A DNA stretch of 64,000 bases from Clytia hemisphaerica (taxonomy: Eukaryota; Cnidaria; Hydrozoa; Leptothecata; Clytiidae). The position numbers were made by a program, and so were the translations under genes. Location of the stretch: assembly GCA_902728285.1 (NCBI GenBank), contig CACVBU010001357.1, positions 52,719 to 116,718 on the forward strand, written 5' to 3'. Below the pieces are notes generated by a model. It saw nothing but the letters and a program-made list of their open reading frames with translations, was not told the origin of the DNA and searched no databases. Below, piece by piece: positions 9,404 through 50,727 of the stretch. Position 1 is the stretch's first letter, and each line of letters begins with the position of its first letter.

Positions 9404-12400
9404 ATGGAGAAGACAACTTTGCAACATTTATTGTCCTCTCAACAGAGTCTAGCGAAGAAGCTTAATAAACTCAGAGATCAATCGAGATCTCGACGTCAGG
9501 TAAACATATCTCATTTCTTTTGCACCCTTTCTAACATTGAGAAGCCTTGATACTTACTTACTTTTGATACTTTTGATGGGTTCTTTGAGTCTCTCAATCA
9601 TTCCATTTGGAAATCCGATGATTCACCATTTCTCTCACACTGTTTGAATCCGCTCTCCTGTAGGGATAATAATTCGGGAGCAGTGGTTCGTCCGGCAGTG
9701 TGGAAAGAAAAAGGTCAAGTTGTCTTTTGAATTTAATTTTTGTGCAGTTTGTGATATTACGAATGTAGAATGGGAGAGAATTGAAAAGCTTAGGTCCTTC
9801 TTCAGATAGTGAGCCTCTCCAAATGTTTTTGTGTTTAGAATTTACTTCTTTAAGGTGGCATTTTCGTCCGAGTCTCTGGTTTTCGTAGCAGGTGATACCC
9901 CCTTTGTTCTCAGAGTGGTTGAAATTTGGAGAATATCTCTCTAAGATATACCAAGTATAGTTATAGATGATTTGATATCTTTCTCTACGTCTTTCCAGAC
10001 TGTATAGTTTTAGAGTTTTAAGTTTTTCCCAATAGTTCAGTCATACCCACATCTAAAGTGATCCCAAGGTCTTTGACTGTAGTCTTGGTCTCTATCACCT
10101 TTTGGGTATCAGAGAAGTATTTGGAGAGTTCTTTAAGTTCTTCATTTCTACCATAATTGAGATGTTCAAATTTAAGTCCATTCAATTTCATGTTATTCAA
10201 TCCAGTCCACTCATAGACTGCGTTCATGTCATCTTGGAGCTGAATGATATCAGCATGGTTTTTGATTTCTTTCATTAGACGTGTATCATCAGCAAATGAT
10301 GATAAGAAAGAGTGTAATATCTTTTTGTCAATGTCTTGTATCATTATCAGAAACAGTAGTGGTCCAAGCACAGATCCTTGGGGAACACCAGAGATGACTT
10401 CTGACCTTTCTGATAGTGTGTAGTCAACAGAGACTTGTTGCGTTCTATCTGTTAGAAAGGATTTGATCCAAGCAAGCAGTTTGCCTTTGATGCCATTGGT
10501 TTTAATTTTGTTCAGAAGAATGGTATGGTCGACTCTGTCGAAAGCCTTGCTAAAGTCAAGGTAGATCACGTCCACATTATTGCCGTTTTCTATATGGTGG
10601 ATAAGTCGTTCTGTGTGAGCTTCTGACAATTTTTTCGAAAATTTTTGAGACATTCGAAGTTAAAGCGACTGGTCTATAGTTTTCTGGTAAACCTTGATTG
10701 CCTTTTTTGAAGATTGGTGTGATGTAGCTTGATTTCAGTAGATGGGGAGTTTGACTTTTGTCTATTGCCTGTAAACAATGCCAAGAACAATATTGAATTG
10801 TTTAGAGTAGAGTAAAAGGGCTTCGTTGACTCCATTTGAGAATTCCAGTAGTGGAGTGAAAAAAGGGGCAACATCTTCACGAATGTATAATGCAACACCG
10901 CCACTGTATCTACCATGTTTGGCTTTTGGTCGATTTCGATCCTTTCAAAAAATTCTATAACCTTGTATCTCAAGCTCAGCTTTATTGTTTCGACAACCAA
11001 GTTTCAGTTATACCTAAAAATATTTGATTGTCAGTGTGTAGAATGTCACGTAGGTATGGAACTGATGACGGTTTTGTTTGTGGGCACAAGCCTTGGATAT
11101 TAAGAAATGAATATTTTGTTATTGGTGTAACGTTGGATATTGATGGTTCGGTAGATGGTTTGTTCGGTTGAAATTCAGGTTTTTGGATTGCATCAATGGT
11201 TGTGGAAGGATTGGAGGATGGAATCTTAGTTGATTGTTCTGATGATTTGGAAGTTGAGGTGGCTGTTTCATTTCGTCTCGTATCAGTGACAGCATTTCTG
11301 TTCTGAAATTGTCCAATAGTTTCTGAAAATCCAGCTGTTGAGGGTGTTCGGTGAGCTGATCTTTCTTTGTGTAGGGGGCTTGCGCTTGGTGCCTTTTACA
11401 TGAACAAAATTACAGTTGTCATTAAAGCACTGACTTATTTTGATTGATGATGAACACATTCTTGGATGGAAATGAGGGCATTTTGTTCCTGCGTTGCATC
11501 CTTTAGGGCTTTTGTTGCCATGTCTCATCAGCTTCGGACAAGCTTTTGGATGTTTGTACTTGCAGCCGTTTCCTTAATACCTGTTTGCATTTTCCCTTTT
11601 TATAGAAAATGCAAATAAGTTCCTCGTTTTCGTTATTTTGAGAAAGGTTTTCTTTTGGAGAAAAGTCACTGCTTTTTGAAAAATTGTTATTTTGTGAATT
11701 TGTTTCTGTGATATTTTCTGAGGTAAGCATGATACTGTTTTGGATTTCTCTTTGAAATTTATTTCGCATAAACTCAGTTCTTCCTAGGTAGATATCGCTG
11801 TCCTGTCTGTTGGTGACAACAATATTTGGTGATAATGGTATATGCGGAAGAGTTCTTCTTGGTGATGGAATACTAACATTTTGGTTACTTTAATCGTAGA
11901 AATTTTAGCGAGACTAATTTTAGCGTATATTAGCGAGTCAGGAAAATCTTGATTTTTTTGGGATTTATTTTAGCGAATCACGATTTCAAAAAATTTCGCG
12001 TGGATAAATTTTAGCGAATACTCGTATTACATTATTGACTGAATTCGTTTTCTAGCATTTCTTTGCACTTAAACCCTTCCTATTGATAAAAATGTATTAA
12101 GGCACTATAACCAGAAATTTGGCGTGGATAAATTTTAGCGATCTGTCGTTTTGGCGTGTTTTAGCGAGATTTATTTTAGCGAAAATAGGGAAAACTCGCT
12201 AAAACGCTAAAATTAGTCTCGCTAAAATTTCTACGATTAAAGTAATATATTTAATTGTATTAGGAGATCGTTCATGTAATATGTTTCTTTTTGGTGATGG
12301 AAGACTGGTGCGTTCAAGAATAGATTTTGTTTTAATTGCAGTAGATTCTTCTTGGAACTTGGTTGGTGGTGAAGTTTCGTGATTATCACTGGTTTGAGGT

Positions 12401-15400
12401 TTGGAGTTTGGAAAGTTGGCAATTTTCGTTTGGCATGATGTGCATATGTAACAGACACCTGGAATGTTGAATATGGGAAATCTCAATTCTTTGTTTTCAT
12501 TCATTAAGTTCATACTTTTGAGATGGTCAATATAGCACTGTTTGTGAACCTCTTGGCCACACACAATACAGTTAATAAATGGTTGATAATTGAGTTTGAT
12601 TCTGTATGGTTCAGTGCAGATTTGACAAATGTCTTCAAAATAATTTTTTATTTTTAGGCAAAGCTTCTTGACAGCTTCATCTTTAAGTCGGATGGTGTCG
12701 ACAGGAGCTTTGGATAGAAAAGATAGAGTGTCCATAATAACGTCCTTGTTGAACGACGATTTCAGAGAATTTAAGTTTTCTTTCGTTGGATTTTCTGGAT
12801 TGTATGATCTGAGGCAATCTCTGATTTTAAGTTCAGCGAGGGATGTTTTCCAGCCTTGAATCACGTCCGAAGAGACACCGTTAACTTCAGTAGATTTAGA
12901 CATTTTAGGTAGTCTCTGCAACGGAAACCAGAGACTGGAGCACTTAACTGGTATATAATGTAGTAGGAGTCAGTCTAAACCATAGAATTGCGAAAAGATG
13001 AAAAGTTACCTGATTAGCTGCACATGGGAATATCAGATTCACTGTCATGTGCAGTTGTTCCTCAGGATTTGGCAAAATGCCTGGGTGACCAGCCACAGGA
13101 CCCTTGTTGCTGACTTGGAAGTAAAAATATAAACGTATACCTCTATGATCCAGGGCTAACCTGGTGTGTTAAAGCAATGCACAACTGGTCCAGTAGCGAT
13201 TGATGTTAGCCAGAGATCCAATGAAATATATGGCCAATTTTTGTTATTATTTGATTATCTTTGATATTGATCCAATTGATACAACCAATACCAAAAAATG
13301 AACTTCGCACTTCTCTAGACGAAGAGTGCCAGGTTGATCGCAACCCTGTTTAGTGCTGTATTTATCGGATTTCACAGCATCTACCGTTCTTTTTGTACTT
13401 TTCATCAATCTAAAATCTTATTCACTTATTCTTAATGGAGTAAATTTTTTTATCTGTCTAGACTTGAGAGCGCATGTTTTCTTAAACACTAATGGGTGGC
13501 CTCTAAAAGTCCTACATTTGAGCTATTCACGTAAAATATAGACTCTTTTGATTAACAAATAGGATTTTTTTTCAGAATGTTTACACCCTTTTAGAAAAAA
13601 AAGATGACTTGAAACACAAAATTAGAGGCTTGTTTTAGAGCTAAAAAATGAGACCAAACTCGGGGTAAAAGGTCTCCGAGGAGCCAAATTTTCTTCTCCA
13701 ACTAAATTTTTACCTGACTTAATAAGCTTCCTGAAGAATAAAAAAGGTTGGATTAAATTTCTCAGAAAACTTTTAATTTTTTTCTCGACTATATTTTTGA
13801 AACTTCGATGATGTAAACCAAACCATTATAAGGGTGTATTCGATCAGTGTGTAACACAACGCTAAAGGTGAGGCGTCCCGCAAGGGCGGCCTCATTTGTT
13901 CGCAATGGACTTGCGTCCCAAGGGCTCAGTGGATCGGTGAGACGGGTTTGAGGTCATTAAGTTGGCTCTCAGGTGCAGCTCCACTGTTGTGACAAAAGTG
14001 CCGGGATTCTCAGAGTAGTGCAGGTACATGACAGAACGAATGAGAGCTATCGAACCAATGCTCACAAAATGATCAAATACATTTAATCATTTTACCAGCT
14101 CCATAATTTATCGAAAGAAGGATTTAATTCGTATATGGGTAACACTATGGGGTTTTATTGGGATCCGCTCGAGAAAAGCATTATGGAAATTGAACATCCC
14201 TAGGTAGAGCTGTTGCATCTTCCCTAGCTAGGGAACAGTTTGAGAAAAATCCAGATTTCCAGATCTGGAAATATACATTTCCATAGCCTAGGGAATCAAA
14301 AAAATTTCCCTGGGCATTATGGGGCTTGGGGATTCATGCCTACTACTTCTTGAACTTAACAGAGATGCTTTAAACATATATCATTTTATTCTGAATCGCA
14401 CACCTCTACAAGACTAGTTAGGGTATGCCATCGGCCTTGATCGTTTCCACTGCTAATGAATTTTTGTGGAAACATTCTAAAGATTTTCGAAGATTTTTCA
14501 TCCAGGACAATCTTATCAGGACAATTTTCCACCCACCAAGCCTACTTCAATTTGTATGTGGGTATCCTAGACCCGGGGGGGGGGGTACTTAGGCAAAAAT
14601 AGGTGCTGGGTATGTGCGGACGGTAAGGGTCGGGTTTTTCACCTTTCAAAGTCTCTCTAAGGGTTACAAAAATCAGGAAATTTCAAAGTAGTCTCTCTAA
14701 GGGTGGGAAAAATCACGATTTTTAGAAAAAAAATTTGATTTTGAGAGAAAAAAATTACAAAAAAGTCTCACTAAGGGTAGGAAATTTTTGAAAATCAGAG
14801 AAAATTTTTCGAAAGAGTCTCTCTAAGGGTCGGTTTTTGGAGGTCCCGTCCGCACATACCCCTCATTCACCAACCCTAGTACCCCCCCCCCGGGATCCGA
14901 GACTTTGTCCTTATCTGAATTTACACGGTACAGAAAAAGTTGGTAACAATAGCGAGGCTTTCCATCTTTCTAAACTTCTTTAAAATATCTTTTCCTGTGC
15001 GAACCGAAGGCTCACTTTTGGCAAGCTCAACTCAGGTGAGATATAAACATCGATGTAATAACTTCTCATTTTTGTACACAGGATCCAATCCTCGATCGCT
15101 CCCTGAGTGAAGAGCTGAGAAATATTCAAAGTGAATTTACATTTAACCAACAGAAGATCAATAGCCTAACTTCCAATGTAAGGCTAGTTCAGAAACTGTC
15201 ACACGACAGTGGTGTTATCATCAACCATTTTCAAAGCTTGGAAGCGTGTTTACGATCGAAATCACTACCTGCATTGCAAACAGCAAGTATATCATCACTG
15301 GAAAAAATCGAGAAAGTGACCATCGTTCAAGAACATTTGAACTCTCAAGAGTCTTCGGCAAGCGACCTTGCACTTAAACTTGGCCACGAAAAGGAATATA

Positions 15401-18400
15401 AAACCAGTGAGGTTCGAAGAGAACCAAGTGTTGTGAGCAATGACAAATTCCTTGAATCAAGTGTTACAACCGAAGACAAAATCCTTGAACCAACTGTTGC
15501 GAGCAATGACAAAATCCTTGAATCAGGTGTTACAACCGAAGACAAAATCTTTAAATCAAGTGTTGCGAGCAATGACAAAATCCTTGAATCAAGTGTTGTG
15601 AGCAATGACAAAATCCTTGAATCAACTGTTGCGAGCAATGACAAAATCCTTGAATCAGGTGTTACAACCGAAGACAAAATCTTTAAATCAAGTGTTGCGA
15701 GCAATGACAAAATCCTTGAATCAAGTGTTGTGAGCGATGACAAAATTTTTGAATCAACTGTTGTGAGCAATGACAAAAGCCTTAAATCAAGTGATACAAC
15801 CGAAGACAAAATACTTGAACCAACCTTTGCGAGCAATGACAAAATCCTTGAATCAGGTGTTACAACCGAAAACAAAATCTTTAAATCAAGTGTTGCGAGC
15901 AATGACAAAATCCTTGAATCAAGTGTTACAACCGAAGACAAAATTCTTGAACCAACTGTTGCGAGCAATGACAAAATCCTTGAATCAACTGTTGTGAGCG
16001 ATGACAAAATCCTTGAATCAAGTGTTGTGAGCAATGACAAAATCCTTGAATCAGGTGTTGTGAGCGATGACAAAATCCTTGAATCAACTGTTGTGAGCGA
16101 TGACAAAATCCTTGAATCAAGTGTTGTGAGCAATGACAAAATCCTTGAATCAGGTGTTGTGAGCGATGACAAAATCCTTGAATCAACTGTTGCGAGCGAT
16201 GACAAAATCCTTGAATCAAGTGTTACAACCGAAGACAAAATCCTTGAACCAACTGTTGCGAGCGATGACAAAATCCTTGAATCAAGTGTTGCGAGCGATG
16301 ACAAAATCCTTGAATCAACTGTTGTGAGCGATGATAAAATCCTTGAATCAAGTGTTGCGAGCGATGACAAAATTCTTGAACCAACTGTTGCGAGCAATGA
16401 CAAAATCTTTAAATCAAGTGTTGCGAGCGATGACAAAATCCTTGAATCAACTGTTGTGAGCGATGATAAAATCCTTGAATCAAGTGTTGCGAGCGATGAC
16501 AAAATTCTTGAACCAACTGTTGCGAGCAATGACAAAATCTTTAAATCAAGTGTTGCGAGCAATGACAAAATCCTTGAACCAAGTGTTGTGAGCGATGACA
16601 AAATCCTTGAATCAGGTGTTACGACCGAAGACAAAATCCTTGAATCAAGTGTCACAAGCGATGATAAGTTTTTTAAAGTGAGTGTCGCCAGTGATCGCAA
16701 TGTCTTTGATGACGATGATGTATTTGAGACAGCTCCGACGTCGACCTCATCATCAAATATCTTCCTTTCTACGAGTCCATCAATGGAGTTTTTGGATCAA
16801 ACTGCCAAGGGAACTGATTCCCAACAACGGGAAAAGGCCGTCAGATTTTCTTCTGACATCGAGGTGTTAGAGAGATCGTCAATCGAGGAATGTTATTCAA
16901 AACACCCAGACGATAATGTTAGATCTTTATGTAACATTGATGTCTTGGAGAAATTATCAACTGAGGAATGCTTTTCAGATCTTCCCAAGGCTACTGTAAA
17001 ATCTTTATGTAATTTTAAAAACGAAGGAGTTTCTGCAACTGCCGTTGTAACTGAGTCCGCCGAAAAGTCTTCTGCAGAAAAACCGACAGAAGAAGTTGAC
17101 ACGACCAACAATATCACTGTATCCAATAGTGATAGTGGACAAGATTTCGTCAAGCTTTACATGGGGTCTAGCGATCATACCGAACCCACCATGGACAAAC
17201 AGAAGCTTGACACTACCACAAATCTGATCACAAAAATCGAATTACCAAGCATTGTAGTTACTGGCTCCGAGAAAAGTGAAAACGGAGAAAATGCATTGAC
17301 ATCTCAAGGTGTATCAAATCTGATCACAAAAATCGAATTACCAAGCATAATAGTTACTGGCCCCGAGAAAAGTGAAAACGGAGAAAATGCATTGACATCT
17401 CAAGGTGTAGATGTAGTTGATAAAACAGAAAATCCTTCCGAGCGAACAGACCCTACCGTCGTGGAAATCTCATCAGTCTTGGAAACTACACCACTACGAG
17501 AACACGAGACAGTTGAGTCAGAAACGTCGACCGAGACAATCCAACACGTTGGAGACAATGCTTCTGATAGCAGTGGTGATTCGTTGGTCGTAATTGTCGA
17601 TTCAGGTAAAGCTTGTACTTGATTTTTCGAGATCTCTCAACTAACGTGAAAGTTGTTGGTTTTCTACTTTAGAATACTATTCTTCAATGTCTAAAGCAAG
17701 GCAATATTCTTAGAAAATGATGTTACTTCATTGTCTGGAATATCAGACAAAACTTCTAAATTAAAAGAGTAATATTATACATTGATATAATATTTTTATT
17801 TTTATATATCTTTCAGGTTCTAAATTGGACATAGTGGGAAGTGTTTCGAGAGCAAGCACAAGCCTGGCTGACATCCATGGCCAGTCCTCGGCAACATCGA
17901 GTAGTCTGCTATCAGAGAATGTAGACGTCATGAGCGATTATTCCTCAAAGGAAACATTTAACCAGACGAAAATTAATTGTTTGGAGAAGATCATTACAGG
18001 ATTTATAGACCAACAGGAAAAAGATGAAATATACATCGCATCCTTGCTGGAAGAGTTGAGTTGCAAAGTTAACATCATTTCAGAATGTGCTAAGAGGGAA
18101 ACAAACCTCAAGAGGAAATACGAACTAGACAAACACTATCTACAACAAAGCTCGGTCTCTACCGAGAGACAGCTCAATGAAATTATTTTGTCTACACGCT
18201 ATGAAAGCGATATGAAGGACAGAGAGATGTTCAATGCTAGAAACAAGTATCAGAACTTGGTCGAGGCTCTTGTCGAGAAAGACAAACGCTACAAACAAGA
18301 GGTATGAAATGTTTTTGACTATAGATGTTGGAACATAATTATCATCAACTTAAGCACTCCTTAGTTTGAATTTTTCTTTGATTTAAACGGATATATTTTC

Positions 18401-21400
18401 ACTTCAACTTCGAATAGTGAATCTAACTAAATTTACAAATCTATGTAATATAAGTAATACGAACAAATCTTATCGGCAACCTGAATGTGCTGGTATGTGC
18501 TTTTCATATTGGTCACACGGAAGATACACTATATAATCTTTAAAAATTGATATCTTTTTGCAGGTCAGCGCTCGAAAAAGAATTGAGTTGGAATTAGAAG
18601 ACTCCAAACAAGAGCTCAAGCATGCTTTTAAGTTCTTGAATAATTTGCACAAAAGTCACACCGAGTTGCAACATGGACATAAAGAATTGTTAGGAGAAGC
18701 AACAAGAAAGTAAGTTACAATCTCTCAAGCTGATGTACGACGTTATTTGAACGTCCATCTAATGTTTTATGTATGTTACAGAATCTTTCCCCTCGTTTTT
18801 TTAAAGACTAATGTACAAGCGACGAGGTCAAGCAAAAAAGGCATAGAAAATAGATGACAGAAAAATTTCAATTTTGACTGCAAAATGCCCTTGGAAAAAA
18901 GAACCATTCCAAATTTCAAAAATATCCTTTTCATGATATAGAAAACAGGCGCGCCTCTTATTCTGAAAAAGTAGAGTTTACAACAGAAATTTTCAAAAGT
19001 AATTCTTTTTTTCGGCTTAAAAATACTGTGTGAGCAAATGGGAGGTGATACGTTAAATGATGTACAATATTGAATATATTTTCAGGAATGAAGTTGATCC
19101 AAATTCATTAAGCAACGCATCGGTTGACCAAACGACTCGTGAACACCCTGCCAACAAAAACAAAAAAGGGCTTTACAGTCCCAGCGAGCCAACAATAGGT
19201 CTTCTACAAATCGATACAAACACTAAAGGATGCGAATCCCAGTGTTCATCCACAAACAGACACCCATCATCTTCATCGACAAGTAAACCAGATGTAGATG
19301 AACACAGTGTCTATAGCAAAAACAAAAAAGGGATTTACAGTCCCAGCGAGCCAACAATAGGTCTTCTACAAATCGATACCATCACTAAAGAATGCGAATC
19401 CCAGTGTTCATCCACAAACAGACACCCATCGTCTTCATCGACAAGTAAACCAGATGTAGATGAACACAGTGTCTACAACAAAAACAAAAAAGGGATTTAC
19501 AGTCCCAGCGAGCCGACAATAGGTCTTCTACAAATCGATACCATCACCAAAGAATGCGAATCTCAGTGTGCATCCACAAACAGACACCCGTCGTCTTCAT
19601 CGACAAGTAAAGCAGATGTAGATTGTGTAGATGAAAACGGTGTATACAACAAAAACAAAAAAGGGATTTACAGTCCCAGCGAGCCGACAATAGGTCTTCT
19701 ACAAATCGATACAAACACTAAAGGATGCGAATCTGCGACTTCATCAACTACCAGATCGGCAAGTAAGTCAGAAGTTAATGACTACAGCGTTGGGAATATA
19801 TCTCTTCTCAAAAACAGTAATAAATCATCCAATCAAATGTTTATCCTGGCCAAAGAATCTTTACAACAACCTCATCATCACACAGGAGCCAACGGTATTA
19901 GAGAATATTCACCTGCGGTAGAAAAGGTTTATCGGAGACCTGATTTGTCCAAGAAGAAGAGAATGCTTGGCCCATCGGAGCCGGTCATCCTTACACCATT
20001 TGACTTGGTGACACCCAAAACATGTCAATCCGTCAACGACATGACACTGATTGAATTTTACAGTTCCCAAAAGTCTTGTGAGTTCGATTTATCAAATGAA
20101 GGTATGGAATCGGTAATCAAATGTTATTCACCGACAGAGCAAGATGATGTGGAAATCAGTCATAGCAGTACCACAAGTGCGAAAGTTTATGCGAGTGCTT
20201 CTCTCAGTAGTAACCTGGAAATTAGTCATAGCAGTACCACTAGTGCGAAACATGATGCGAGTGCTTCTCTCAGTAGTAACCTGGAAATTAGTCATAGCAG
20301 TACCACTAGTGCGAAACATGATGCGAGTGCTTCTCTCAGTAGTAACCTGGAAATGTGTCATAGCAGTACCACAAGTGCGAAAGATGATGCGAGTGCTTCT
20401 CTCAGTAGTAACCTAGAAATCAGTCATAGCAGTACCATAAGTGCGAAAGATGATGCGAGTGCTTCTCTCAGTAGTAACCTGGAAATGAGTCATAGCAGTA
20501 CCACAAGTGCGAAAGATGATGCGAGTGCTTCTCTCAGTAATAACTGCTCTGGATTGTGTTCCAACACTGAGTTAACAAACGCTGATTCCACCTGCGTGAT
20601 TGGTGAAGACTTTAAAGATCCACGAAAATCGATCAATGAATCTCATACAACATTATCAAGAGTAAACCCGGAGCCAGCAGCGATTAACCCGTTTCACACT
20701 CTCATTGAAAAGGCTTGCAGGGAATCGACCATAAGTAGAAAAAACGTCAATAAAACACTTTCAAAGCCTGATATTAACTTAGAGCCTGATATTAACTTAC
20801 AACCCGACACGAGCTCAGAACGAAACGAAAAACACTTATTAGTTACCGAGACAACTACAGAGCCCAACAAAAACGGGGGCTTCATTAAAAGCTTAGTTGT
20901 AAGTTTTCAAATTATGGTAGGCTTTGTCATGCTCCCATATACAACAGTGATTGGAGTGAAAAATGCTTACGGGAAAATATCAAAAAGTTTATCTACAAAA
21001 ATTGCAAATGCTAAAAAGGTTTGTAAGAAAGACGAACCAAAGACGGAATCTGTCGGTAAGGTTGCAGAGGACAACGAATTGGAAACGATCGACACTTCCA
21101 CGTCATCGCCAAGTTATGAAGTTAGGCGAATTGTAAATCGATGCGATATCGTCTTCTTAGGCGGGTTGGAAGATGTTGATATTCAAAAAGGAGATAGCCA
21201 AGAGGTGACTGCAACGACGGAAGATAAAATAATGACACCGAACAACAATCATGGAGCTTTCTCAACTGTATCAAATAGTTCTTCTCTCGAGGACAATACA
21301 GTACTTCAATCAACCGAAGGAGATTCCAATACAGTTAGCAAAACCTTCTCAAATCCCGAAATAAACGAAATCGCCAATCCTTACGAGATTTCTTTCCTCG

Positions 21401-22794
21401 GAGAGGAACAACAAGATACTTTTGGATTGGGTGACAAAAGTGATGCACCGAACATTGATGAAGGAGTGTTAGTGGAAAATTTAACCAGACCCATTGAAAC
21501 GATTGTCAACGTTTACACATTTCCATTCAAAATGTTAAACAATATTAAAACCAGTGTCATGGAAACATCAGATGCGATGACAAAAAGAATCAAGAATGCG
21601 AAAAAAGTTGTGCGCAGACAAAGAACAGCACGCACATCGAACCAGCAAAACAGATCCTCCGAGGGCACTGCGAACAATGGAAATCTCTCTCTAGGAGGAT
21701 CGGAAGATTACAATGTTCAACAGGAGACCAAAGTTACAATGGTAACATCGAACAATAACCAAATAACAAAAGATACTGAGATAATTCCAGTTATAAATGA
21801 AACTTCATTCCTCGGGGAAGTTGCTAGATCTGAATCATCAGACGAAATTTCTGCAATGGAAAAATCAGTTGACATCGAAGTGTCAAGTTCCGACCAACAC
21901 CCAATAGCTAATCCATACGATGTTTCATTCCTCGGAGAGGAACAAGGAGGTAAAGCAAAAAGCGATGCAACAGATCATCATGGAGAAGTCTTGATCGAAA
22001 ATTTAACCTACCCTTTTGAAACAGTTCTCAATGTTTACGCCTTTCCATTCAGAATATTGAACAATATAAAAAACAGTGTCACGGAGACATCAGATGCGAT
22101 CACAATGAGAATTGAGAATGCGAAGAAAGTTGTGCGCAGACAAAGAACCACGCGAACATCTGACCAGCAAGACAGATCCCAAGAGGAGACAAGTACTGAT
22201 GGTGACCATCTTCAAGAAGGAACGGAAGATGTCGTTAGCCAAACAGAAAAAAGCCCAGAGAGGACTGGTAACAAAATTGAAATGTTGACATCAAACAACA
22301 ACTTAATAACTGAGAAAAATGAAATAAATCCAGCAGTTAATGGCAGTGTAACCACCCTTGGTGAAATTGTCGAGCAGCCACCATCAAATGCAGTTTCTGC
22401 AATGGAGGAAACGGTCGACTTCGAAGTGCCAAGTTCTGACCAACACCCAATAGCCAATCCGTACGATATCTCATTCCTCGGAGATGGACAGCAAGATAAT
22501 TGCAAAATAAACACCAAAAGCGATGCAACAAATCATAATAAAGGAGTCTTAATTGAACATTTAACCAGACCCGTTAAAACAGTTCTCAACGTTTACGCCT
22601 TTCCATTCAGAATGTTGAACAATATAAAAAACAGTGTCACGGAGAAATCAAATGCGATCACAATGAGGATCGAGAATGCGAGAAAAGTCGTACACAGACA
22701 AAGAACGGGGCGCACATCTGACCAGCAAGACAGATCCCAAGAGGAGACTGAAAACCCAAACGTACTTCAGCTGGATGGTTCAACTACACAATAA
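9404..22794 (+). CDS. Gene A: giant repeat-rich coiled-coil protein with four hydrophobic LPY/FPF modules, unknown family
   Basis: Exons are 9404-9499, 15082-17605, 17817-18301, 18564-18709 and 19086-22794, phases 0, 1, 0 and 2, giving 2319 residues. Residues 1-120 are predicted helical/coiled coil (MEKTTLQHLLSSQQSLAKKL...). Residues 150-567 are 38 copies of an 11-residue repeat, consensus ASNDKILESSV. Exons 3-4 (about 874-1083) are rich in heptads and charged. Exon 5 has four 54-57-residue repeats around YSPSEPTIGLLQIDT, six 22-residue repeats around EISHSSTTSAK, an INPFHTLIEKA motif (about 1618), and four modules. Each module pairs a hydrophobic stretch (LPYTTVIG near 1700; FPF near 1896, 2070 and 2256) with a basic NAKKVVRRQR tail; NPYDxSFLGE motifs precede the later ones. 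No known domain is recognised. Parallels in gene B at 46466-49474 (-) suggest a paralogous family. Biochemical function and location are unknown. Confidence 0.8.
10018..10653 (-). pseudogene. LINE reverse transcriptase fragment
   Basis: The 211-residue open frame contains the RT signatures YLDFSKAFDRVDH, GVPQGSVLGPLLF and the catalytic FADD box (SFADDTR). This places it with CR1/Jockey-clade non-LTR retrotransposons. Its N-terminal fingers are in a different frame and the C-terminus continues beyond a stop at 10018. It is part of the LINE at 9590-12935. Confidence 0.88.
11885..12245. mobile_element. Palindromic MITE inserted in LINE ORF1
   Basis: The termini TTACTTTAATCGTAGAAATT and its perfect reverse complement bound a 361-bp element. 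The inner repeats are TTTTAGCGAGACTAATTTTAGCG and its complement. TA dinucleotides lie just inside the outer bases at both ends, which fits a Tc1/mariner-type insertion. It splits LINE ORF1, so it is younger than the LINE. Confidence 0.8.
12199..12921 (-). pseudogene. LINE ORF1 fragment with PHD-like zinc finger
   Basis: The 240-residue open frame starts with an acidic helical region and then carries paired cysteines: CQICTEP, CIVCGQEVHKQC and CYICTSC, spaced as a PHD/FYVE-type zinc-binding domain. Zinc-finger ORF1 proteins are known in CR1/L2-type LINEs. The last about 15 residues come from the MITE inserted at 11885-12245. After that insertion ORF1 resumes in the minus frame (NVSIPSPRRTLPHIP...). 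Confidence 0.75.
12936..14570. other. Gene A intron 1 sequence without a recognised feature
   Basis: Part of this may be the LINE 5' region (12936 to about 13330). The open frame at 13353-13541 has no family features. I see no exon, RNA gene or inverted repeat with clear ends. Confidence 0.4.
14572..14895. mobile_element. MITE-like element with G/C-tract ends and internal CTCTCTAAGGGT repeats
   Basis: The ends are C-C-C-G-(G)n-TACT and the reverse AGTAC-(C)n-GGGA, with inner inverted copies of GTATGTGCGGACGG. Inside are four direct or imperfect copies of GTCTC(T/A)CTAAGGGT. It lies in the last 500 bp of gene A intron 1. No coding capacity. Confidence 0.65.
15433..16686 (+). repeat. 33-bp coding minisatellite: 38 copies of an 11-residue repeat
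   Basis: Thirty-eight in-frame 33-bp units encode variants of (A/V)S(N/D)DKILES(S/T/G)V and TTEDKILEPTV. Several higher-order blocks recur: TTEDKIFKSSV after ASNDKILESGV, and the trio ASDDKILESSV/ASDDKILEPTV/ASNDKIFKSSV near the 3' end. This indicates growth by unequal exchange of multi-unit blocks. The unit length keeps the frame, so every copy-number change is tolerated. Confidence 0.95.
19155..19770 (+). repeat. Four 162-171-bp coding repeats in gene A exon 5
   Basis: Units begin near CAAAAAAGGG at 19161, 19323, 19485 and 19656 (periods 162, 162 and 171 bp). Each encodes NKKGIYSPSEPTIGLLQIDT followed by a Cys- and Ser-rich stretch. The divergent relative GPSEPVILTPFDL follows at about 19970. 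Confidence 0.9.
20152..20547 (+). repeat. Six 66-bp coding repeats (22 residues) in gene A exon 5
   Basis: Six tandem units encode EISHSSTTSAKHDASASLSS-type sequence, very Ser-rich, with nearly identical nucleotides. Changes are mostly at two positions: the Ile/Met before Ser/Cys-His, and the residues after SAK. Confidence 0.93.
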
Positions 22795-24386: not shown

Positions 24387-26985
24387 TCACAAAACATGTG
24401 AAGAGTTTAATATTTCACGTAGTAAAATAGTGGCGTATGTGGATGGTGGCAAAATGAATTCCAAACAAAGATCAAGATTACTTTCAGAGGTCTTCCCATC
24501 TTCACTTGCTTCACAAACTTCCATAAATTTATACTCAAGTTCGTTTGAGAAAGACAAAACTCGCCGATAAGAGCCAGGGATGTGTGCAATACCTAGCCTC
24601 CTGACATTCAGCTGTTTAGCCTGTAGACCATCTTCTCTAAGGAGGTTGTCCATTATCACTCTAGTTTCATTTTCAGGGTACATTATGTTACTACCGGGAA
24701 AAGGTAAAAGAACATCTCGAAAATGAAACTTTTTAACTTCTTCTGCCATGATTGGTCGAACTGATTCACCATCTTGGACCAAGTCCCCTTCCAGAACATC
24801 GAACCCGAAGCGCTCCACTCTTATGGAAAGTGTTCTATTCCACACATAGCTACAATAACTATGCAGATAAAACAGCCGTGCGGCGAACGGAATATTCATA
24901 AAGGCTTTCACACAGCCGTTCTCACAATATGAATAACGTTTCAAAGCTTTCAGCATTTGGCATTCTCGAACTTTGAAATTAGGCATCATTTTTAACGCTC
25001 CATCGATGTTTTTGTCCACGTGAAACATTTGCTTTGCTTTTTCAACGACATCCAATGTTTCTGATTTGCTTTCCTCTGGCATAAGTGGAGCGAATACAAA
25101 ATTGAGAGCTTTAATGAATTCACCAGTGAACAAATGTTTACCAATGAGAGCAGTGGAAAGATCAATTCCGAAGCGTTGCTCGCCGAAATAATTGAGAAAT
25201 CCATTTGTTTTAATAGCTTCTATTGCTGATGAGATACCATTCTTAACGTCATTTTCTGATCCTAGAACAGAATAGAAAAAGTTTACTGACAGTGATAGAA
25301 CAGCTTAAATAAAACTACATTGAAACAATAGCTGAAAAATAAATGCTTTCTGTAAATAGCAACCCAACCACAATTATAAATATTTCTAAAATAATTCTGA
25401 AATATCCGTTAAAAAAGTCGTGGTGTAAAAGGGGAGTAAAAGTCAACGATTTGGGTGAAATATTGGAATCTCTGTGCATAAATTACTTTTCAAGTTTACT
25501 TTGAAAAACTTAAATTGCCTTCTCTTTGCAGTGATCAAAGCAAGGATTTTCATCAGAGACAGAAAATGGATTTTACATGGCAAATTAACACATTAATCTT
25601 AAGATTTCGGCGAACGATGCAGAATTTTGAGACGATGAAGTCTCTTTATAATACTTCACTGAAACGAAAATCCGTCCACTTTACCTTCTACAGGTTGTAC
25701 ATCCTTGACAACGATTTCGAAATGGTTCCCTGATAAATCTCCCAATCTTAATTCATCATCCACAAGAGTAGGTTCTCCAACAACCTTCCATTGCAAACTA
25801 CCAAATGTGGAAACTGATTTCAAATCTGAAACTTTGGCACCGGAGACAGACAAGAATTGATATGTTACAGCTTTCTTGTCTTTTATTCCAGCATATTTAA
25901 TTTGACCAGCATCCACTTTCAGAACTTTGGCCAGAGAATTCAGAGCATGGAGCAGTTCAATATTCTCTTTACGAAAAACAAAACTGAATACATTTTTCTC
26001 TTCTCGCTTTCGTTTATTCTGTCGATTCTCCTTGCGTTCTTTGAACCGAACTGAAATCGAATCTGATTTATCTCCAACAGTTTTAGATTCCAAAAATTTG
26101 CCATATTCTCTTTGTAAAAAATGATGTACTTGACCCCTAGTCGTTCGATCCATTTCTGCAACACCAATCAATAATGGTCTTTCTTCGCTCGTTTGTGTAC
26201 CTCTTAACAACCGACAGTTAATAAAAACCAATAGTTCTTTAATGCATTCTGGTGTCAGACCAATATCTACCAGACTTTTGAAGGCAGGATCGACACAACA
26301 CGTGATGACGGTTTGAGATTCTCGTCGGACAGGAACTGATTTGATGTTTGGGAAACATTGACGTATACATTGGTGGAGAATGGTACGGTCATTTTTGTCT
26401 TCAAACGAACCTGGTAAAGCAAAAAATTATAAACACTCAAGTCTAATTATAGATTTATTTTAAACATTTTATCATTAATGTTTCAAAATCTTTTATATTA
26501 CAGTTTAAAGGTAAGTCAAGTTGTTTCAAACTTTTGAAAGGCTCTCAAAATATCAAAGAACTTATTAAAAATGGTTTACCTAGCTCAATAACATCCAAAG
26601 AGAATTGATTCAATGATAATTCCTCTATCTGATTCAAATGAGCATCACCAATTAATTTCCCTAAATGCTTTTTAGGACCTATTCGAATTAGATTCCAATC
26701 TACAGCAGCACCAGCATCAGTCTGTTTTGTGATTGCTGGTATGGGTTGATGGTGATTATTACTTGAAGATTCACCAGTACTGGATCGATGTTTCTTGCAT
26801 GGAGCTAGATTCGATGAATTCAGATTCGCCAAACTATCAACATATCTGTCAGTGCCAGCTATCTGACCATTAAGACCAATCTCTTTGACGATAAAATCTG
26901 TTGGCTGACTTTTGATCATTCCTTTAAAAGGTATTCCAATATTTCTGAAGCATTTAACTCCATACTTTTCATATGGTGTCTTCAT
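24387..26985 (-). CDS. PUS7L: PUS7L-like pseudouridine synthase (TruD family)
   Basis: Exons on the minus strand are 26985-26580, 26410-25685 and 25261-24387, giving 668 residues, similar to animal PUS7/PUS7L. TruD-family enzymes isomerise uridine to pseudouridine in tRNA and mRNA. Visible landmarks are an N-terminal GMIKSQPTDFIVKEIG segment and RKENIELLHALNSLAKVL. The catalytic motif is YAGIKDKKAVTYQ, with Asp313 as the presumed nucleophile. LSGNHFEIVVKDVQPVEG, GFLNYFGEQRFG (about 398-409) and MPNFKVRECQMLKAL follow. The C-terminal part (LNVRRLGIAHIPGSYRRVL, TYATILLREIL) matches PUS7L better than PUS7. Introns are phase 1 at both junctions. The ATG is preceded by an in-frame TGA-poor leader; an upstream exon is not excluded. 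It lies between the orphan exon and a transposon-rich block. Confidence 0.9.
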
Positions 26986-26999
26986 TGTGTTTTAATATC

Positions 27000-36430: not shown

Positions 36431-36599
36431 GAAAAGCTGGCAACAGACGAACGAACGGACGAACGAACGAACGGACAAGGGTCAATTTAAAGGACTACCT
36501 TAGGTAGGTCCAAAAATAATAAGTAAGAAAGTCAGGAGTGTACTGGACTAAGTTTGTTTACTCTACCATGGATAATCAGCATTTGTTTCAATACAGATC

Positions 36600-37806: not shown

Positions 37807-38005
37807 AATGATAAAAATTAACAGAAGCATTTTTTATTTTTGTTAAAAATTTATTATAAGACGTTTCGATGCTCTCCGAGCATCATCCTCAGTTAAAATG
37901 AGGATTTTTACAGTTTTAACTGAGGATGATGCTCGGAGAGCATCGAAACGTCTTATAATAAATTTTTAACAAAAATAAAAAATGCTTCTGTTAATTTTTA
38001 TCATT
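37807..38005. repeat. Perfect 92-bp inverted repeat with 15-base loop
   Basis: Arms 37807-37898 and 37914-38005 are exact reverse complements by eye over all 92 positions. Each arm holds GACGTTTCGATGCTCTCCGA on one strand or TCGGAGAGCATCGAAACGTC on the other. Within an arm GATGCTC-GGA-GAGCATC forms a further hairpin. Perfect arms imply a very recent insertion, ongoing gene conversion or an assembly fold-back. Confidence 0.9.
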
Positions 38006-38173
38006 AAGTTTCTGGCCCGATTGAACATATTTTTACATAAAAAAAAATGTCCAGAGTAAGAGCACAGAATGTACATTTATGTTTTTTTTTTCAGCCAATG
38101 CAATGGGATGGTTTGTTTGTTTGTTTGTTGGGACCTTTTGCGAAGCAAATTTACGAGCAAAGCAGTTTTGCTA

Positions 38174-39129: not shown

Positions 39130-39761
39130 ACATTGTGTGCATGTACCTTTAACTTCTCTATCCCAAGCAAAAATTTGCTATATACATCGCACCTTCAAAC
39201 CCGTACTTTGTCAAAATGACCTTGAATAGTTTTGCTTGAAGCCACAAAAATTTTCAAGGCACCATTTCCACGTTGGGTCTGTGGACACGGACACAGCAAG
39301 ACTAGACAAAAAAACTTCCAAACAAAACAAGACAAAGACAGGTCACAGCAGTTAAGAAAGGAACACGTGGCACTGCACTTACACTTAAAGATAAAATCAT
39401 AAGATATGTATGAAAAAAGAAGAGAAAGAGACAAGAGGAGACGTAAAAGGAGGTGGAGATGCTGAGATAATCCTTAATCTTTCGAGATTTAGCTTCGGCG
39501 CAACTTTGTCTACCATCTTTTTTGTTTACATTTTGCGCACTAGCTTGAGTAGCGTTTTCCGATTCCTGGGGCTAAACATGTAAACAAAAGTTCAAAAACG
39601 AAAGTGAAAGTTTTAAAAGCTGTTATATTTTTTTTCACATAAAAATTTAACATTCCAATGTTGGCTGGCAGCTTTTTATCTGAATTTTAGTTTGTTTTCC
39701 GAGTAAGAAGAGAAAACTTCAAAAAAAATTTTTTTGATCGATATTATTTAACTGGAAAATC

Positions 39762-45700: not shown

Positions 45701-48700
45701 TCGAAAAAAGGACAGGCAAGCTCTAACGGTTTAAAACTATCTTCGGCTTTTTGCTTTTTTCTTAGATAGTGATTTGTGATAGACTATACTTTTACTTGCA
45801 CAGAACTAAAATACTTGACAAATTGAAAGATTTACAAAATAATAACTTGATTTATAAATTACAAGTAGTTTATCTATAACGAAATTTGATAGTTTACAAG
45901 ATCAAGTAAAAAGTCTCCTTGATATCTCTTGTGAAGAAAAAACTCCAATTATAAGGCAGTTTGGGTGAAGCCCTAGGGTGGAGTTATTTGTAGTGGTCGT
46001 ATATTGGAAGTATCAGTTTCAAGTGAAAAGTTTAAAGTCAAAATTTATATAGAATGATAAAAAAATATAGATGAAAAAGCTCGATAAATCGAGAATAGCA
46101 ACTACACCAAATAATTTATATATTTTCCTGTTTTCGAATTTGATCATCACTTATGAGAGCATCAGCTGTTTTAGTTTTGAGATAACGTGACTCCAAATAT
46201 TTTTTGGCATGATGCATGATCGCGCAAAAAATTGATGCCTGATTTGTGATATGTTTCGCTCTATTTGTGATTTTCGTAATCGTGATGAGAGCAAAAATTC
46301 AGCATAATGACGTGACGAATGGTGCCACTCTTTATCTTTAATGAAGGGACTGAAGCAAATATTGGACCGACAAATAATATTTAGTTTTAAAAATTTATTC
46401 ATGGAAAAATAAAAATAAAATTTAAAATATTAAGTTAAAGTGAAAACGAAGGAAATATGATTCTGCTAATTTGCACGTCGCCCGGATCGATAATTCGATT
46501 TGAGTCGATTTTTCTTGAGAATGTTTTTAGCATTCGTGGTACGTAATCTGAAGTTTGCCACTATGTTATTGATAGTCATTTTGACGTCTGTGTAAAATCT
46601 GTACGGTGTGAGGACGAAGTGGACGATTTGCTGATACATTTTTATAATGTCTTTCACAAAACCAATCCTTTTGATTAAATCTGTGATGTGTTGTTTACTA
46701 TAGGGTTGCTCTGGCGCATGCGCGTTTCTTTTCTGTATATGTTTCGGTCTGTGCCTCTTTAAAATCTTCTGAGCATTATCTTTTCTCGTGTTGAAAGAAT
46801 TTAAAACACTTTTTAGAGTTTGAAAAACAGTCACATAAACTCTGTATGGGAGAAAGAACAGATTCACAAAAAAGAACACAGTTGCGACTAAGTTACCGAT
46901 CAAATTTTTCAATCTGATATTGCCGTTTTTCTTGGTGATTTTTCTTTGCGGTGGTTGTGAAGGTTCCCCAATGAAAACCAAATCTGGAGAATAAACTGTT
47001 CTCGATTTTGGTGAGGTAATGAGATTTGAAGAATCGGTGCCGTCAATCAGCTCCATATCATTTGTAACACGTTTTCGTCCAAGCATTCTAAACTTCGCAC
47101 CAAAGTTTAGAATGTTGTCCGTCAGCCCAATCAAAGTCTTCTTGACTCTGCAAACAAAGTCTTTACATTCTACATATACACGATATGGTAGCATGATCGT
47201 ATCGATGACCGCGTTCAAATCCTCTAACAAGTCAGATTTGATCGAATCAATCCAACCAATTTCTTTACGCTTCTTGAAAGGAATGCATTTATCTGTCAGG
47301 ATATCATTATTCGCAACCTTTGATTTGCGGCGAGTGGATTTCCTTGAGACACGATCCTGTGTCTGATAAGAGATTTTATCAGTGGGATTAATATTATCGG
47401 CAGAGTAACGAGGATTGATTCCATATGAGTCTTTCTTGTATGACTTCCCTTTAAAAGAGTTCTTCTTTTGTCGTTCTATTTTAATTGCCCGCTCCATTAT
47501 CTCATCGAATGGGTTTACACTCGGGACGGTTTCTGTTACAGATGGTCGATGCGGGACGATCTCCATGGTTAGTTTATTATTTTTCTGTTTGTAGTGCTGC
47601 TTTATCATGTGTTGTTCAGAGGGTGTATTAAATATTTCCCCGCTAATTGCATTGATTTGATTAGCTTTCAAAGGGGCGATTTGGGAGTCTTGTATGTCAA
47701 GACTCGCACCACCGCTTTTCCCTAACTGCACGGAAAGACTTTGTTGGACTTTATCCACTAATCCATCATCAAGGGTGTTTGATTGGTTTTCAACTGGTAC
47801 ATTTAGATATATGCTAGATGCGCATCTAGAGGTAGGAGGTGTGAAAAATTCGTCGTCACAGTTCGAGATAGTGTGTTCGCCAGAGTTGAATTTATCACCA
47901 GATGTTGGCCCGATAACATCGGCAATATGATTCAATGAAATATCCTATATTGGAAATGAAGAAGAATTGTGAGAACAGAGTCAATATTTTGGAGAGCCCC
48001 GCTAACAATAAGGTTTTTACTGACCCAATATATCCCGTATCCCACCTCGAGACGTCCGTGCAACTGACTTATCCCGTTGAAGTCCCTATTTTATTATGAA
48101 ATTACTTCCCTGGTAAAAATTCTTGAAAAGTTCTTGAAAAGATCTTATCAAGAAACTTTGCTTATTCTTTTTCAGTTTCTTACTACGAACGTGCCAAGAT
48201 CTTTTAAGATCTTTAACGATCTGATAAGACTTTTTTATAAGTTTTGAATAAGATTCTTGTCCCTTACAGTGATTCAAGATCTTGACGGAATCTTAAGTAA
48301 AAATAAGTCTACGACCGCAGTTCCACCCGAAGGTAGGGGAGTGTGCCACTCTTTCTCCCTGGATTGCTCCACTTACCCTTGATCCTTCTCTTAATTGCTG
48401 AGCATCAAGCAGAGAGGTATCAAGTACCATTTTGGGACTCTTTGGTATGACCCGGCTGGGGGTTGAACCCACAACCTTGCGCACCGTAGGCGGATGCTCT
48501 ACCACTGCACTACGGTCGCTGACGGAATCTTACTACTATTCCCCTTCAGTTATTGAATAAGAGCCGAAAGCTTCGCTCGAGTGACAGCATTCAACTGATG
48601 ACCTCGTGAATACTTCCCATTAATCATCCAAGCATTAATACAGTCAATGATAACAAACACACAAAAGAAAAACCACTTACCGTATTTCGAAGCTGACCAA

Positions 48701-50727
48701 AAACTGATTCGTAAATACTATCCTAAGAGATTGCTCTCCTTGAGTCTAAAGACTCCTTCTTATGAAAAACAATCATAACCAGAAATTTACGTGTTTTTAA
48801 GATTCTTAACCCGAACTTGATAAGAACCACTAAAAATCTTAAAGCTTCTTTGCACATAATAGTTAGTTAAGATTTGGAAAGTCTCTTTATAAAAACTTTA
48901 TAAGTTACGCAAAGAATCTTAAAATAATTTATGGCTCAAGATTTCGTAAGATTCTGCTTAAGAACTTAATAAGAAATAATAAATTTTCTTACTATAAATA
49001 TGCGGAAAGAATCTTGACAATTCTTACAATTTATTTACAAGATCTCTAAAGATCTTTTTGTTGGAAGAAATTTTCAAGATTGCCTAAGAATCGTTGTAAG
49101 ATCTTACAAAGATTTTTAAAGATTCTTACTTATTAAAGATCTTGAAAGATCTTCAACGATATTTTCAGATCTTATCAAGAATTTTTACCAGGGTAAGTAA
49201 TAATTAGTTTTGAATCGGTTTGGAAAGTGATATACGTTACAAGAAATGAAAGCTAGAGAATATGGTTACGAAAAAGTCACAAATAAGTAAGAGTTGATAT
49301 TAGGTTTGATCGCGGCTATTGTATTAGAAGAGTTTCGAGGTTTTCTTTGATGTCAGTGTAGATCAATAACAAACAGATAAAGAGAAAGTGATGCATAAGA
49401 ATAGAAAAAGAGCTGGAGTAACTAACCTGGCATGAACAAGTTTGCTCAAATGATTGATGCTGCGAAGTGTTCATAATTCTTGTCCTTCGAAGCACAGTAG
49501 AATCAAAATGTATTGATTGACCAAAAGCTTATAAAAATACAACAAAACTAGAGACGATGTCTGGATGTGACTGCCAAATAAGAGAAACTTCTAGTTATGA
49601 ATGAAGCTAAACAAAAGCGATGTCGTTTTTGAAAAGATCAGAAACTGACGTCAGTTTTTCTTTTTGATTTGATTTGACGTCACACTGTGACAAAAAAATA
49701 TTTATACCATGGCATTTAGTTTGAAAACTGTAGCCTCACTTTCGCAATGAAAACCAAAGAAACCAATAAAATAAGCACGAATAGTCCTATTCCCCTGTGA
49801 ATACTTAAGCAAATTGGTACCGGTTATATGCAATCCGTAAAGAATATCAACCCTGAGAAAGGATTCAAAACACGAAAATCAACCATCTTCTCAACCTCGT
49901 TCCCTGCGTATTGTCAGCTTTTGATGCTTACTGATAGCGCTAGATAATACCCTGGCATTGGCTGGTTTTCGAGCGCGAATGATTACGTAATTCAAAAACA
50001 AAACGTCAGATTTCATTTGTTCCTGGGTTTGAAACCATTGCATTGCAGTGCAACTTTGTAACGTCAATTTTTTTTATGACGTATTGTTTTGAGAAGTTCC
50101 CCCTCTGAGAGGGGGAACTCGCATCAGCCAACACCAGGGTATTCTCTGGCGTCCATAAGTAACGTAAATAAAGCCTGGGATACACGGGGACGAGGTTGCC
50201 ATCTTCTTCCTCAAAAGTTACGGATTTCCTGGCAAATTCACGCCCCTTCTCACAGACCCGGTGGGACTCCCTCCCAATGGAAAATTTGGCCAAAATATCG
50301 TCCCCGTGGAAAAATCTACTCGAATTTTTGTCCCCGCTGAAAATAATCAAATTAACAAATCAAATTTTTTCCTCCCTACTGAATTTTCTGACTTGAAAAC
50401 AATCGAATACAAATCCCCAGTCATAAAAAAATGGGAATATCAATCCCAATCGAGTTTCCGTTCTGTTATTTCTGTCCCAACTGGTTGAAAAAGTGCTAGC
50501 GGGTCTGTAAGAAGGGGGAGAAAATTTGGACACATTTGTAGAAGATGAACTAATGTTAGCGAGAAAAACAAAAAAAGGTTCTAAAAACGTCAATTCCTCC
50601 TCTTAAGACTCGATTTTCGATTCTATATCACATGTCTTATATTATTTCTTCAGAACACACATCAACATCTGGACCAACCAATGGCAAGTACACACGTCTC
50701 GAGGAAGGTGCTAATCCCAACGCTTGA
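39762..50727 (+). CDS. Ephrin-like type I transmembrane protein
   Basis: Exons are 39762-39877, 40136-40314, 40929-41054, 41556-41717, 42253-42417, 42940-43242, 43596-43625, 44707-44853 and 50654-50727 (433 residues). Intron 1 is phase 2 and all others are phase 1, typical of extracellular modules. A signal peptide (LLFIASQLICFALG) is followed by an ephrin-like cupredoxin pattern: LPTILWDSRNFLFG, IMFACPS, FNTCNAT, FHTCDYEN, LSQPFSFDDKAKTVYIFSTS and GSCAPQSGYFPLKLKI. These include four spaced cysteines. A Cys-rich region (exons 4-5) follows, with a WNGTC..RQC thrombospondin-1-like hint. Then come a Ser/Thr-rich stalk with NxT/S sites (exon 6), a transmembrane helix (ITVISGIIGAMLVGVFVLHA) and a short tail ending YTRLEEGANPNA. 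Ephrins are ligands of Eph receptors. The long Cys-rich stalk is unusual for them. The last intron is 5.8 kb and contains gene B antisense. Confidence 0.72.
40586..40859. mobile_element. MITE family with TCACAGAC-type ends, copy 1
   Basis: The ends CACCCCTGTGTCACAGACCT and the inverse GGACTGTGAGCCATGGGTG bound a segment with internal CCACTGGGAAATTGA and CCCCATTG motifs. It lies in intron 2 of the ephrin-like gene. Related copies are at 50243-50518 and 54795-55040. Confidence 0.65.
42101..42200. mobile_element. 100-bp palindromic MITE, CAGCTGGCACACAACGT family
   Basis: The ends CAGATGGCACACAACGTTGT and the reverse complement of ACAGCGTTGTGTGCCAGCTG flank a short core containing TAACGTTTGTC and its complement. 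It ends 52 bp before exon 5 of the ephrin-like gene. A longer relative is at 60584-60927. Confidence 0.75.
43286..43430. mobile_element. 145-bp MITE with AGCGTAGGCAGGAGGGGCG ends
   Basis: AGCGTAGGCAGGAGGGGCG at the left pairs with CGCCCCTCCTGTCTACGCT at the right. The repeat continues inward through AAAATTTGTGTAGGAG. It lies in intron 6 of the ephrin-like gene. No clear target duplication was identified. Confidence 0.75.
43808..44473. repeat. Diverged foldback in ephrin-like intron 7
   Basis: TAAAGTCTGTCTCAA (43808) pairs with TTGAGACAGACTTTA (ending 44473). The repeat continues inward through TCTAATTCGAATT and GGAATATTATCAAAAAG-type matches with gaps. The open frames at 43725-43994 and 43995-44207 lie in it and have no domain. 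Confidence 0.6.
46466..49474 (-). CDS. Gene B: paralogue of gene A, three hydrophobic LPYRVY modules, unknown family
   Basis: Exon 1 is 49474-49427 (16 codons, MNTSQHQSFEQTCSCQ) and exon 2 is 47944-46466, phase 0, giving 508 residues. An AATAAA lies about 70 bp past the stop (46394-46399 region, minus). Visible elements are NPFDEIMERA (about 160-169), SPDLVFIGE (about 335) and three modules. Each module has a hydrophobic stretch around LPYRVYV (about 268 and 381) or TPYRFYT (462); two end in a basic DNAQKILKRHR/TNAKNILKKNR tail and the first in GAKFRMLGRKR. The second hydrophobic stretch (VATVFFFVNLFFLPYRVYV) is long enough to cross or enter a membrane. The same elements occur in gene A. The gene is nested antisense in the last intron of the ephrin-like gene. 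Its own intron holds a MITE with a SINE inside. No known domain is recognised. Confidence 0.83.
48101..49202. mobile_element. 1.1 kb inverted-repeat element in gene B intron
   Basis: ATTACTTCCCTGGTAAAAAT at the left and its complement (ATTTTTACCAGGGTAAGTAAT) at the right are terminal inverted repeats of about 30 bp. The interior is dense in AAGATCTT, CTTATCAAG and similar palindromic words. A SINE with its own target duplication is inserted at 48296-48519. It is an uncoded, MITE-like element; the superfamily is unknown. Confidence 0.72.
48296..48519 (-). mobile_element. tRNA-derived SINE with 13-bp target-site duplication
   Basis: On the minus strand the element starts GCGACCGTAGTGCAGTGGTA. 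It carries an A-box-like TAGTGCAGTGGTAGAGC (48496-48512) and a B-box GGGTTCAACCC (48460-48470) at tRNA-like spacing, followed by a non-tRNA body. A perfect TGACGGAATCTTA flanks it at 48283-48295 and 48520-48532, showing target-primed insertion. No poly(A) tail is evident; the 3' end reads TTATTTTTACT. It is not a functional tRNA gene, because the acceptor stem is not closed and the body continues. Confidence 0.88.
49646..49682 (-). promoter_or_regulatory. Paired TGACGTCA (CRE/ATF-type) palindromes upstream of gene B
   Basis: TGACGTCA occurs at 49646-49653 and 49675-49682, 29 bp start to start, on the upstream side of the minus-strand gene B. The distances to the ATG (49474) are 172-208 bp. 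On the minus strand the distal site reads GTGACGTCAAAT, identical to the distal site of gene A. Confidence 0.65.
50243..50518. mobile_element. MITE family with TCACAGAC-type ends, copy 2
   Basis: CCCCTTCTCACAGACCCGGT at the left is mirrored by GCGGGTCTGTAAGAAGGGG at the right. It shares TCGTCCCCGTGGA(A)AAA-type interior with copy 1. It ends 136 bp before the last exon of the ephrin-like gene. Confidence 0.65.

Follow-up and report, generated by a model that had tools for sequence, protein, structure and literature searches.

The analysed stretch of Clytia hemisphaerica DNA (64,000 nucleotides, hereinafter the window) contains two predicted genes, denoted here A and B. Gene A (9404-22794, plus strand) consists of five exons (9404-9499, 15082-17605, 17817-18301, 18564-18709 and 19086-22794) and encodes a protein of 2,319 amino acids; gene B (49474-46466, minus strand) consists of two exons (49427-49474 and 46466-47944) and encodes a protein of 508 amino acids. 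In both models, splicing is predicted at GT-AG borders, and the gene coordinates proposed in an earlier sequence-only reading of this DNA yield open spliced frames. The claim of that reading that the first intron of each gene is in phase 0, with Gln before it and Asp after it, holds as well in these predicted models, the donor of exon 1 following Gln in both genes. The G+C content of the window is mostly 31-41% (in 2-kb steps), the stretch contains introns, and we read its gene content (homeodomain, PUS7L-like and sulfatase-like frames) as that of an animal.

The two predicted proteins share a module of about 50 amino acids, of which seven copies align about an invariant proline followed by tyrosine or phenylalanine. 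Four copies are encoded in exon 5 of gene A (A1, 20875-21051; A2, 21463-21639; A3, 21982-22161; A4, 22543-22719; plus strand) and three in exon 2 of gene B (B1, 47060-47260; B2, 46733-46924; B3, 46490-46681; minus strand). B2 is the most hydrophobic copy; B1 is the most divergent one and aligns with the others only when gaps are introduced. A profile built from the four A copies assigns 44.0 bits to the B protein, compared to 8.9 bits for the best of 1,000 shuffled B sequences; conversely, a profile built from the three B copies assigns 54.2 bits to the A protein, compared to 5.1 bits for the best of 1,000 shuffles. Thus, the two module sets, which had been proposed to be related on the strength of a few landmarks, match far above the background of whole-protein shuffles in both directions. 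Among the pairwise comparisons of A and B modules, 9 of 12 score so high that no more than 4 of 1,000 shuffled modules reach the same value, and all the weaker pairs involve B1 (against A2, A3 and A4, with 41, 14 and 32 of 1,000 shuffles, respectively). A BLASTP comparison detects the similarity between B3 and A1 with an E-value of 1.6e-6 and a gapped collinear stretch that includes the NPF element, module 1 and the FLG-type motif (see below) with an E-value of 1.4e-5, both values being optimistic because they come from a one-sequence database with masking and composition correction switched off. Judging from these comparisons, modules A1-A4 and B1-B3 are almost certainly homologous and A and B are paralogs, with four modules in A and three in B as originally claimed. 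The similarity does not appear to extend to the N-terminal parts. As many as 480 of 500 shuffles do as well as the alignment of the first 60 residues of B with the first 120 residues of A, and 19 of 500 reach the score of the strongest match between residues 1-155 of B and 1-1610 of A, which so is not clear of the background; homology beyond the modules is not supported for this region. No third gene with module copies was detected in the window, where the other six-frame matches to the profile score at most 8.7 bits.

In addition to the modules, A and B share two short landmarks, and the NPF element, module 1 and the FLG-type motif follow one another in the same order in both proteins. The NPF element is INPFHTLIEKACRE in gene A (20683-20724, plus strand) and VNPFDEIMERAIKIER in gene B (47471-47518, minus strand). 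The FLG-type motif precedes modules A2 (NPYEISFLGEE, 21370-21411), A3 (NPYDVSFLGEE, 21904-21945) and A4 (NPYDISFLGDG, 22450-22491) on the plus strand and B2 (YSPDLVFIGEP, 46961-46993) on the minus strand, and two further copies are present in A. When counted with patterns that were defined post hoc, on sequences already inspected, the FLG-type motif has five occurrences in A, a number that none of 2,000 shuffles attains, and a single one in B, which 10 of 2,000 shuffles also reach. For NP[FY], the four occurrences in A are likewise attained by none of 2,000 shuffles, but the single one in B is reached by 259 of 2,000 and hence not notable. The similarity of the NPF context between A and B is reached by none of 1,000 shuffles (for 40-residue stretches picked by hand).

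The rest of gene A is rich in repeats. The three expanded repeat classes that had been noticed are all recovered: a 33-nt (11-amino-acid) tandem array of 37.7 copies in exon 2 (15421-16664, plus strand), and 162-nt and 66-nt repeats (3.5 and 6.0 copies, respectively) in exon 5, upstream of the NPF element, the FLG-type motifs and the modules; there are also arrays of 96 nt (2.0 copies) and 18 nt (1.9 copies). The 11-amino-acid repeats are acidic, and residues 141-560, which hold this array, carry a net charge of -49. Exon 3 encodes a coiled-coil-like stretch (17945-18301). A search of the PDB with this stretch returns 11 sequences with E-values from 1.6e-5 to 0.45. Of these, 8 are labelled gp41 or constructs of the HIV-1 envelope, and the names of the other 3 read "transmembrane glycoprotein"; we read these matches as a reflection of heptad composition and rejected homology to gp41.

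Comparison of the repeat units that contain A2, A3 and A4 gives dN values of 0.07-0.11 for the motif and 0.09-0.16 for the module, against 0.34-0.55 for the spacer and 0.38-0.61 for the linker. The corresponding dS values are 0.36-0.74 (motif and module), 0.29-1.44 (spacer) and 0.97-1.06 (linker), and dN/dS is 0.09-0.24 for the motif, 0.25-0.37 for the module, 0.28-1.17 for the spacer and 0.38-0.58 for the linker. By these sequence comparisons, which involve small counts, the motif and the module are the most constrained parts of the A repeat units. The gap between module and linker is smaller in dN/dS than in dN, given the lower dS of the module, which possibly reflects gene conversion.

Pfam searches with A exon 2, the frames containing A exons 3 and 5, B exon 2, the seven modules and the coiled-coil-like stretch identify no family at the cut-off. 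The best of the weak matches are DotY in the A repeats (E-value 0.005; 17.1 bits against a cut-off of 27), NXPE4_C in B3 (0.023) and SNARE in A2 (0.4); none of the caveolin, perilipin, reticulon, oleosin and SNARE families exceeds its curated score in the pieces scanned. The PDB contains no sequence match to the module profile, B exon 2 or the C-terminal part of A, and a Foldseek search with the module model yields one uninformative match (E-value 8.7). Searches that reach close relatives only give 115 pattern matches in GTDB genomes for B exon 2 and 6 in IMG/VR for the A2-A4 region (21370-22791), with 0 confirmed in each case. A literature search found nothing that joins hydrophobic hairpin, amphipathic helix, NPF motif and membrane. 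The statement that the module belongs to no named family therefore holds within Pfam, the PDB, GTDB and IMG/VR, and, judged on these collections, A and B at present form a putatively new orphan family whose existence is well supported and whose mechanism is inferred.

An AlphaFold2 model of module B2, for which the alignment was shallow (7 rows, with the six other copies added to B2), consists of a single helix that spans residues 25-82 of 96 (58 residues) and passes through the proline at position 51. The mean pLDDT is 69.6, with the best values (94) in the block 61-70 and values below 50 for residues 1-23, which include the motif. The model of the three modules in tandem is poor (mean pLDDT 43.9; B3 is unaligned in its alignment) and shows no confident packing. 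The hydrophobicity profile averaged over the modules is also helical, with the best angle of 102 degrees per residue (2 of 2,000 shuffles). Amphipathicity above that given by composition, the property of amphipathic lipid-surface binders, is seen in six of the seven modules: the helical moment is reached by 1 (A2), 3 (A3), 5 (A4), 6 (B1), 30 (B2) and 34 (B3) of 1,000 shuffles, the exception being A1 (99 of 1,000). On the two sides of the proline, the hydrophobic face points in directions that agree within 24-51 degrees in six of seven modules (91 degrees in B1). A lipid-binding discriminant, whose score is in part charge, is passed by 56% of the module 18-mers in A (132 windows) and 61% in B (100), compared to 7% (2,034) and 17% (292) outside the modules. 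The second halves of the modules are polar and basic, and all seven modules carry a net positive charge over the 40 residues past the hydrophobic segment; B2 is basic on both flanks, and the N-terminal flanks are acidic at A2 (-4) and A3 (-3), which would also suit a simple membrane span at these positions.

The upstream regions of A and B share paired sites, which are new in this analysis. Two copies of the palindromic CRE-type site TGACGTCA are located upstream of gene A at 9194-9201 and 9221-9228 (span 9194-9228, plus strand; -210 and -183 from the ATG) and two upstream of gene B at 49675-49682 and 49646-49653 (span 49646-49682, minus strand; -208 and -179). The window contains 9 copies of TGACGTCA against 0.76 expected (0 of 100 shuffles reach 9; the largest number is 3), and it is the top-ranking one of the 45 palindromic 8-mers that are seen there and have four G/C; 4 of the 9 form the A and B promoter pairs, and the five others are single. 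The second commonest 8-mer of this class is TCACGTGA, with 4 copies. The 10-mer TTTGGTTTTC is in register as well (-285 in A and -284 in B), TGAGGCTA is common to both promoters but 13 nt out of register (-251 and -264), and two other shared 8-mers are far out of register. Among 20,000 pairs of random 350-nt segments drawn from the window, overlapping same-strand pairs being skipped, the longest in-register run is reached by 14 and the summed score by 4. The remainder of the promoter alignment shows, by eye, scattered identity only, which makes the shared blocks look as though they were kept by function. The site TGACGTCA is the canonical CRE, which in human prefers proximal promoters (PMC3464117), and in mouse spermatids the full CREs occupied by CREM number several hundred (PMC3091680). 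The palindromic sequence by which CREB/ATF/Jun-type control would be recognized is thus present in both promoters, and the paired sites suggest that A and B work together. As a control, the X-box was sought with up to 2 mismatches and has no match in either promoter.

The palindromic X-box pattern is of the RFX type. Elsewhere in the window, two exact palindromic X-box matches (4401-4414 and 4963-4976) lie within 600 nt of each other near the sulfatase-like frames; with up to 2 mismatches allowed, a figure that does not apply to exact matches, 2.34 occurrences are expected and 19 of 100 shuffles contain at least 4. The sulfatase-like frames (6617-8450, plus strand; Sulfatase and Sulfatase_C, both below the cut-off) are located just upstream of gene A. 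A PUS7L-like pseudouridine synthase is encoded at 24390-26426 (minus strand; TruD and PUS7L_N above the cut-off, R3H_PUS7L below it), and the next upstream frame (26548-26991) has no Pfam match. A homeobox gene (62380-63249, plus strand; Homeodomain, E-value 4e-17) has a single TGACGTCA site, which lies 369 nt before its first ATG. Mobile elements are represented by a retrotransposon fragment that includes reverse transcriptase and RNase H (610-1527, plus strand) and, in intron 1 of gene A, by LINE-like remains (9594-12969, minus strand) with a reverse transcriptase frame (10021-10659, Pfam RVT_1) flanked by broken frames on the minus strand. Inspection by eye also reveals a MITE-like insert in the LINE region (about 11885-12250) with near-terminal inverted repeats that contain TTTTAGCGA units, another MITE-like element with inverted poly-G/poly-C ends (about 14570-14905), and, in intron 1 of gene B, a stretch that resembles a tRNA and looks as if it had a B-box, perhaps the head of a SINE (about 48430-48520, minus strand). 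ARAGORN calls no tRNA in the window, this stretch included, and Rfam gives no match in the window.

Several explanations of the shared module can be considered. That the genes are unrelated and both the protein similarity and the common promoter sites reflect convergent low complexity or chance is very improbable: the N-terminal parts do fail to align above shuffles and B1 is weak against A2-A4, but the reciprocal profile matches lie far beyond 1,000 shuffles, the landmarks are collinear, the intron phase is common, and of the 20,000 random pairs only 14 equal the promoters in the longest run and 4 in the summed score. Insertion into the membrane, with the modules forming hairpins, re-entrant segments or spans and the proline at a turn or kink, finds some backing in hydrophobicity. 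Six modules have 19-residue octanol values below zero (A1, -8.4; A3, -4.8; A4, -1.6; A2, -0.6; B2, -13.4; B3, -5.1); these favour insertion, strongly for A1 and B2 and also for A3 and B3, and the basic residues on both flanks of B2 point the same way. Nevertheless, no negative segment of B1 is found among the best six listed for B (the sole B1 entry is +1.9), and on the Kyte-Doolittle scale only A1 (1.88) and B2 (2.02) stand out, the next module being at 0.98. Furthermore, the second halves of the modules are polar and basic, the helix predicted from the shallow alignment is uninterrupted and without a turn at the proline, and a hairpin that turns there is disfavoured because the faces before and after it point the same way. 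On this balance, we consider insertion of any of these kinds quite unlikely; a simple multi-pass protein, in particular, is disfavoured by inference from the basic tails that come after every hydrophobic segment. The membrane hairpins proposed in the sequence-only reading are thus not borne out, and membrane association as such persists as the most likely role.

The modules might instead be dimerization or bundle helices through which A and B would co-assemble into a cytoskeletal or centrosomal scaffold, with no membrane involved. The best periodicity is close to the 103 degrees of a heptad, the drift of the hydrophobic face across the module in six of seven copies is, by our arithmetic, about that of a heptad stripe, so that coiled-coil packing fits too, and A contains a further coiled-coil-like stretch. 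Against such packing are the wide hydrophobic half centred on the Pro-Tyr/Phe pair, the very hydrophobic segments of A1 and B2, and the tandem model, which is without confident packing although too poor to exclude it. This alternative seems unlikely to us, although it deserves attention. The interpretation of the modules as amphipathic helices on the membrane surface, for which we consider the chances about even, is preferred; a monotopic helix is favoured over consecutive single-pass spans because the latter would be expected to misplace alternate basic tails.

Under this surface-helix interpretation, A and B would be paralogous intracellular proteins of one small family. Each module is predicted to form one long helix running through the invariant proline; this helix would rest in the cytosolic surface of a membrane and bury its hydrophobic side in the lipid, its C-terminal end, rich in Lys and Arg, would bind acidic headgroups, and the presence of three or four modules per chain would provide avidity. 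With its coiled-coil-like region and long acidic repeat spacers, A could act as a multivalent tether or scaffold, and B would be a compact, coat-like version. The NPF and FLG motifs would recruit partners, and for the NPF elements EH-domain trafficking proteins are candidates. The two genes may be switched on jointly by a putative bZIP factor of the CREB/ATF/Jun type.

By mode of action, the nearest kinds of known proteins would be multivalent amphipathic-helix proteins similar to perilipin 4 and the caveolin/cavin coats, with A and B belonging to neither. Perilipin 4 contains 33-mer repeats. It has a giant amphipathic helix that coats lipid droplets (PMC5889406). The proposed likeness to A and B lies in a repeated amphipathic helix in a cytosolic protein with avidity for a lipid surface. 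The difference is that perilipin 4 forms one very long repetitive helix, whereas A and B would each have 3-4 separate helices of about 50 amino acids with a central proline and a basic end, and no perilipin family appears among the Pfam results. Caveolins and cavins pair helices that lie in the plane of the cytosolic leaflet with a coat protein of the coiled-coil type. This arrangement is what A and B would share with them; A and B differ in having several modules per chain, and neither family (for Cavin1, see PMC9231606) is detected by Pfam in the pieces scanned. Reticulon/REEP/oleosin-type proteins are hairpin membrane proteins that resemble A and B in a hydrophobic segment with proline and aromatic residues beside basic tails, and from which A and B are set apart by the single continuous helix predicted from a shallow alignment and by the lack of any such family among the Pfam matches.

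A broader proposal, which we advance tentatively and consider rather unlikely in its entirety, is that A and B represent a lineage-restricted family whose members have in common a new amphipathic helix module centred on proline and a promoter with conserved paired CREs. Together they would build a membrane coat specific to one cell type, B forming the coat itself and the large A serving as its multivalent tether. In the cnidarian source of this DNA, cnidocytes would be one candidate cell type, given that knockdown of Cnido-Jun disrupts cnidocyte formation in Nematostella (PMC6161364); the text of that paper does not use the word "motif" and does not itself link TGACGTCA to cnidocytes. The module profile and the two-gene set can be searched for at once in eukaryotic proteomes, and the family couples a protein module to a common promoter signature. 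If the proposal is true, these genes would represent a new design of a multivalent membrane-surface protein and would point the way to the cell type in which it is employed.
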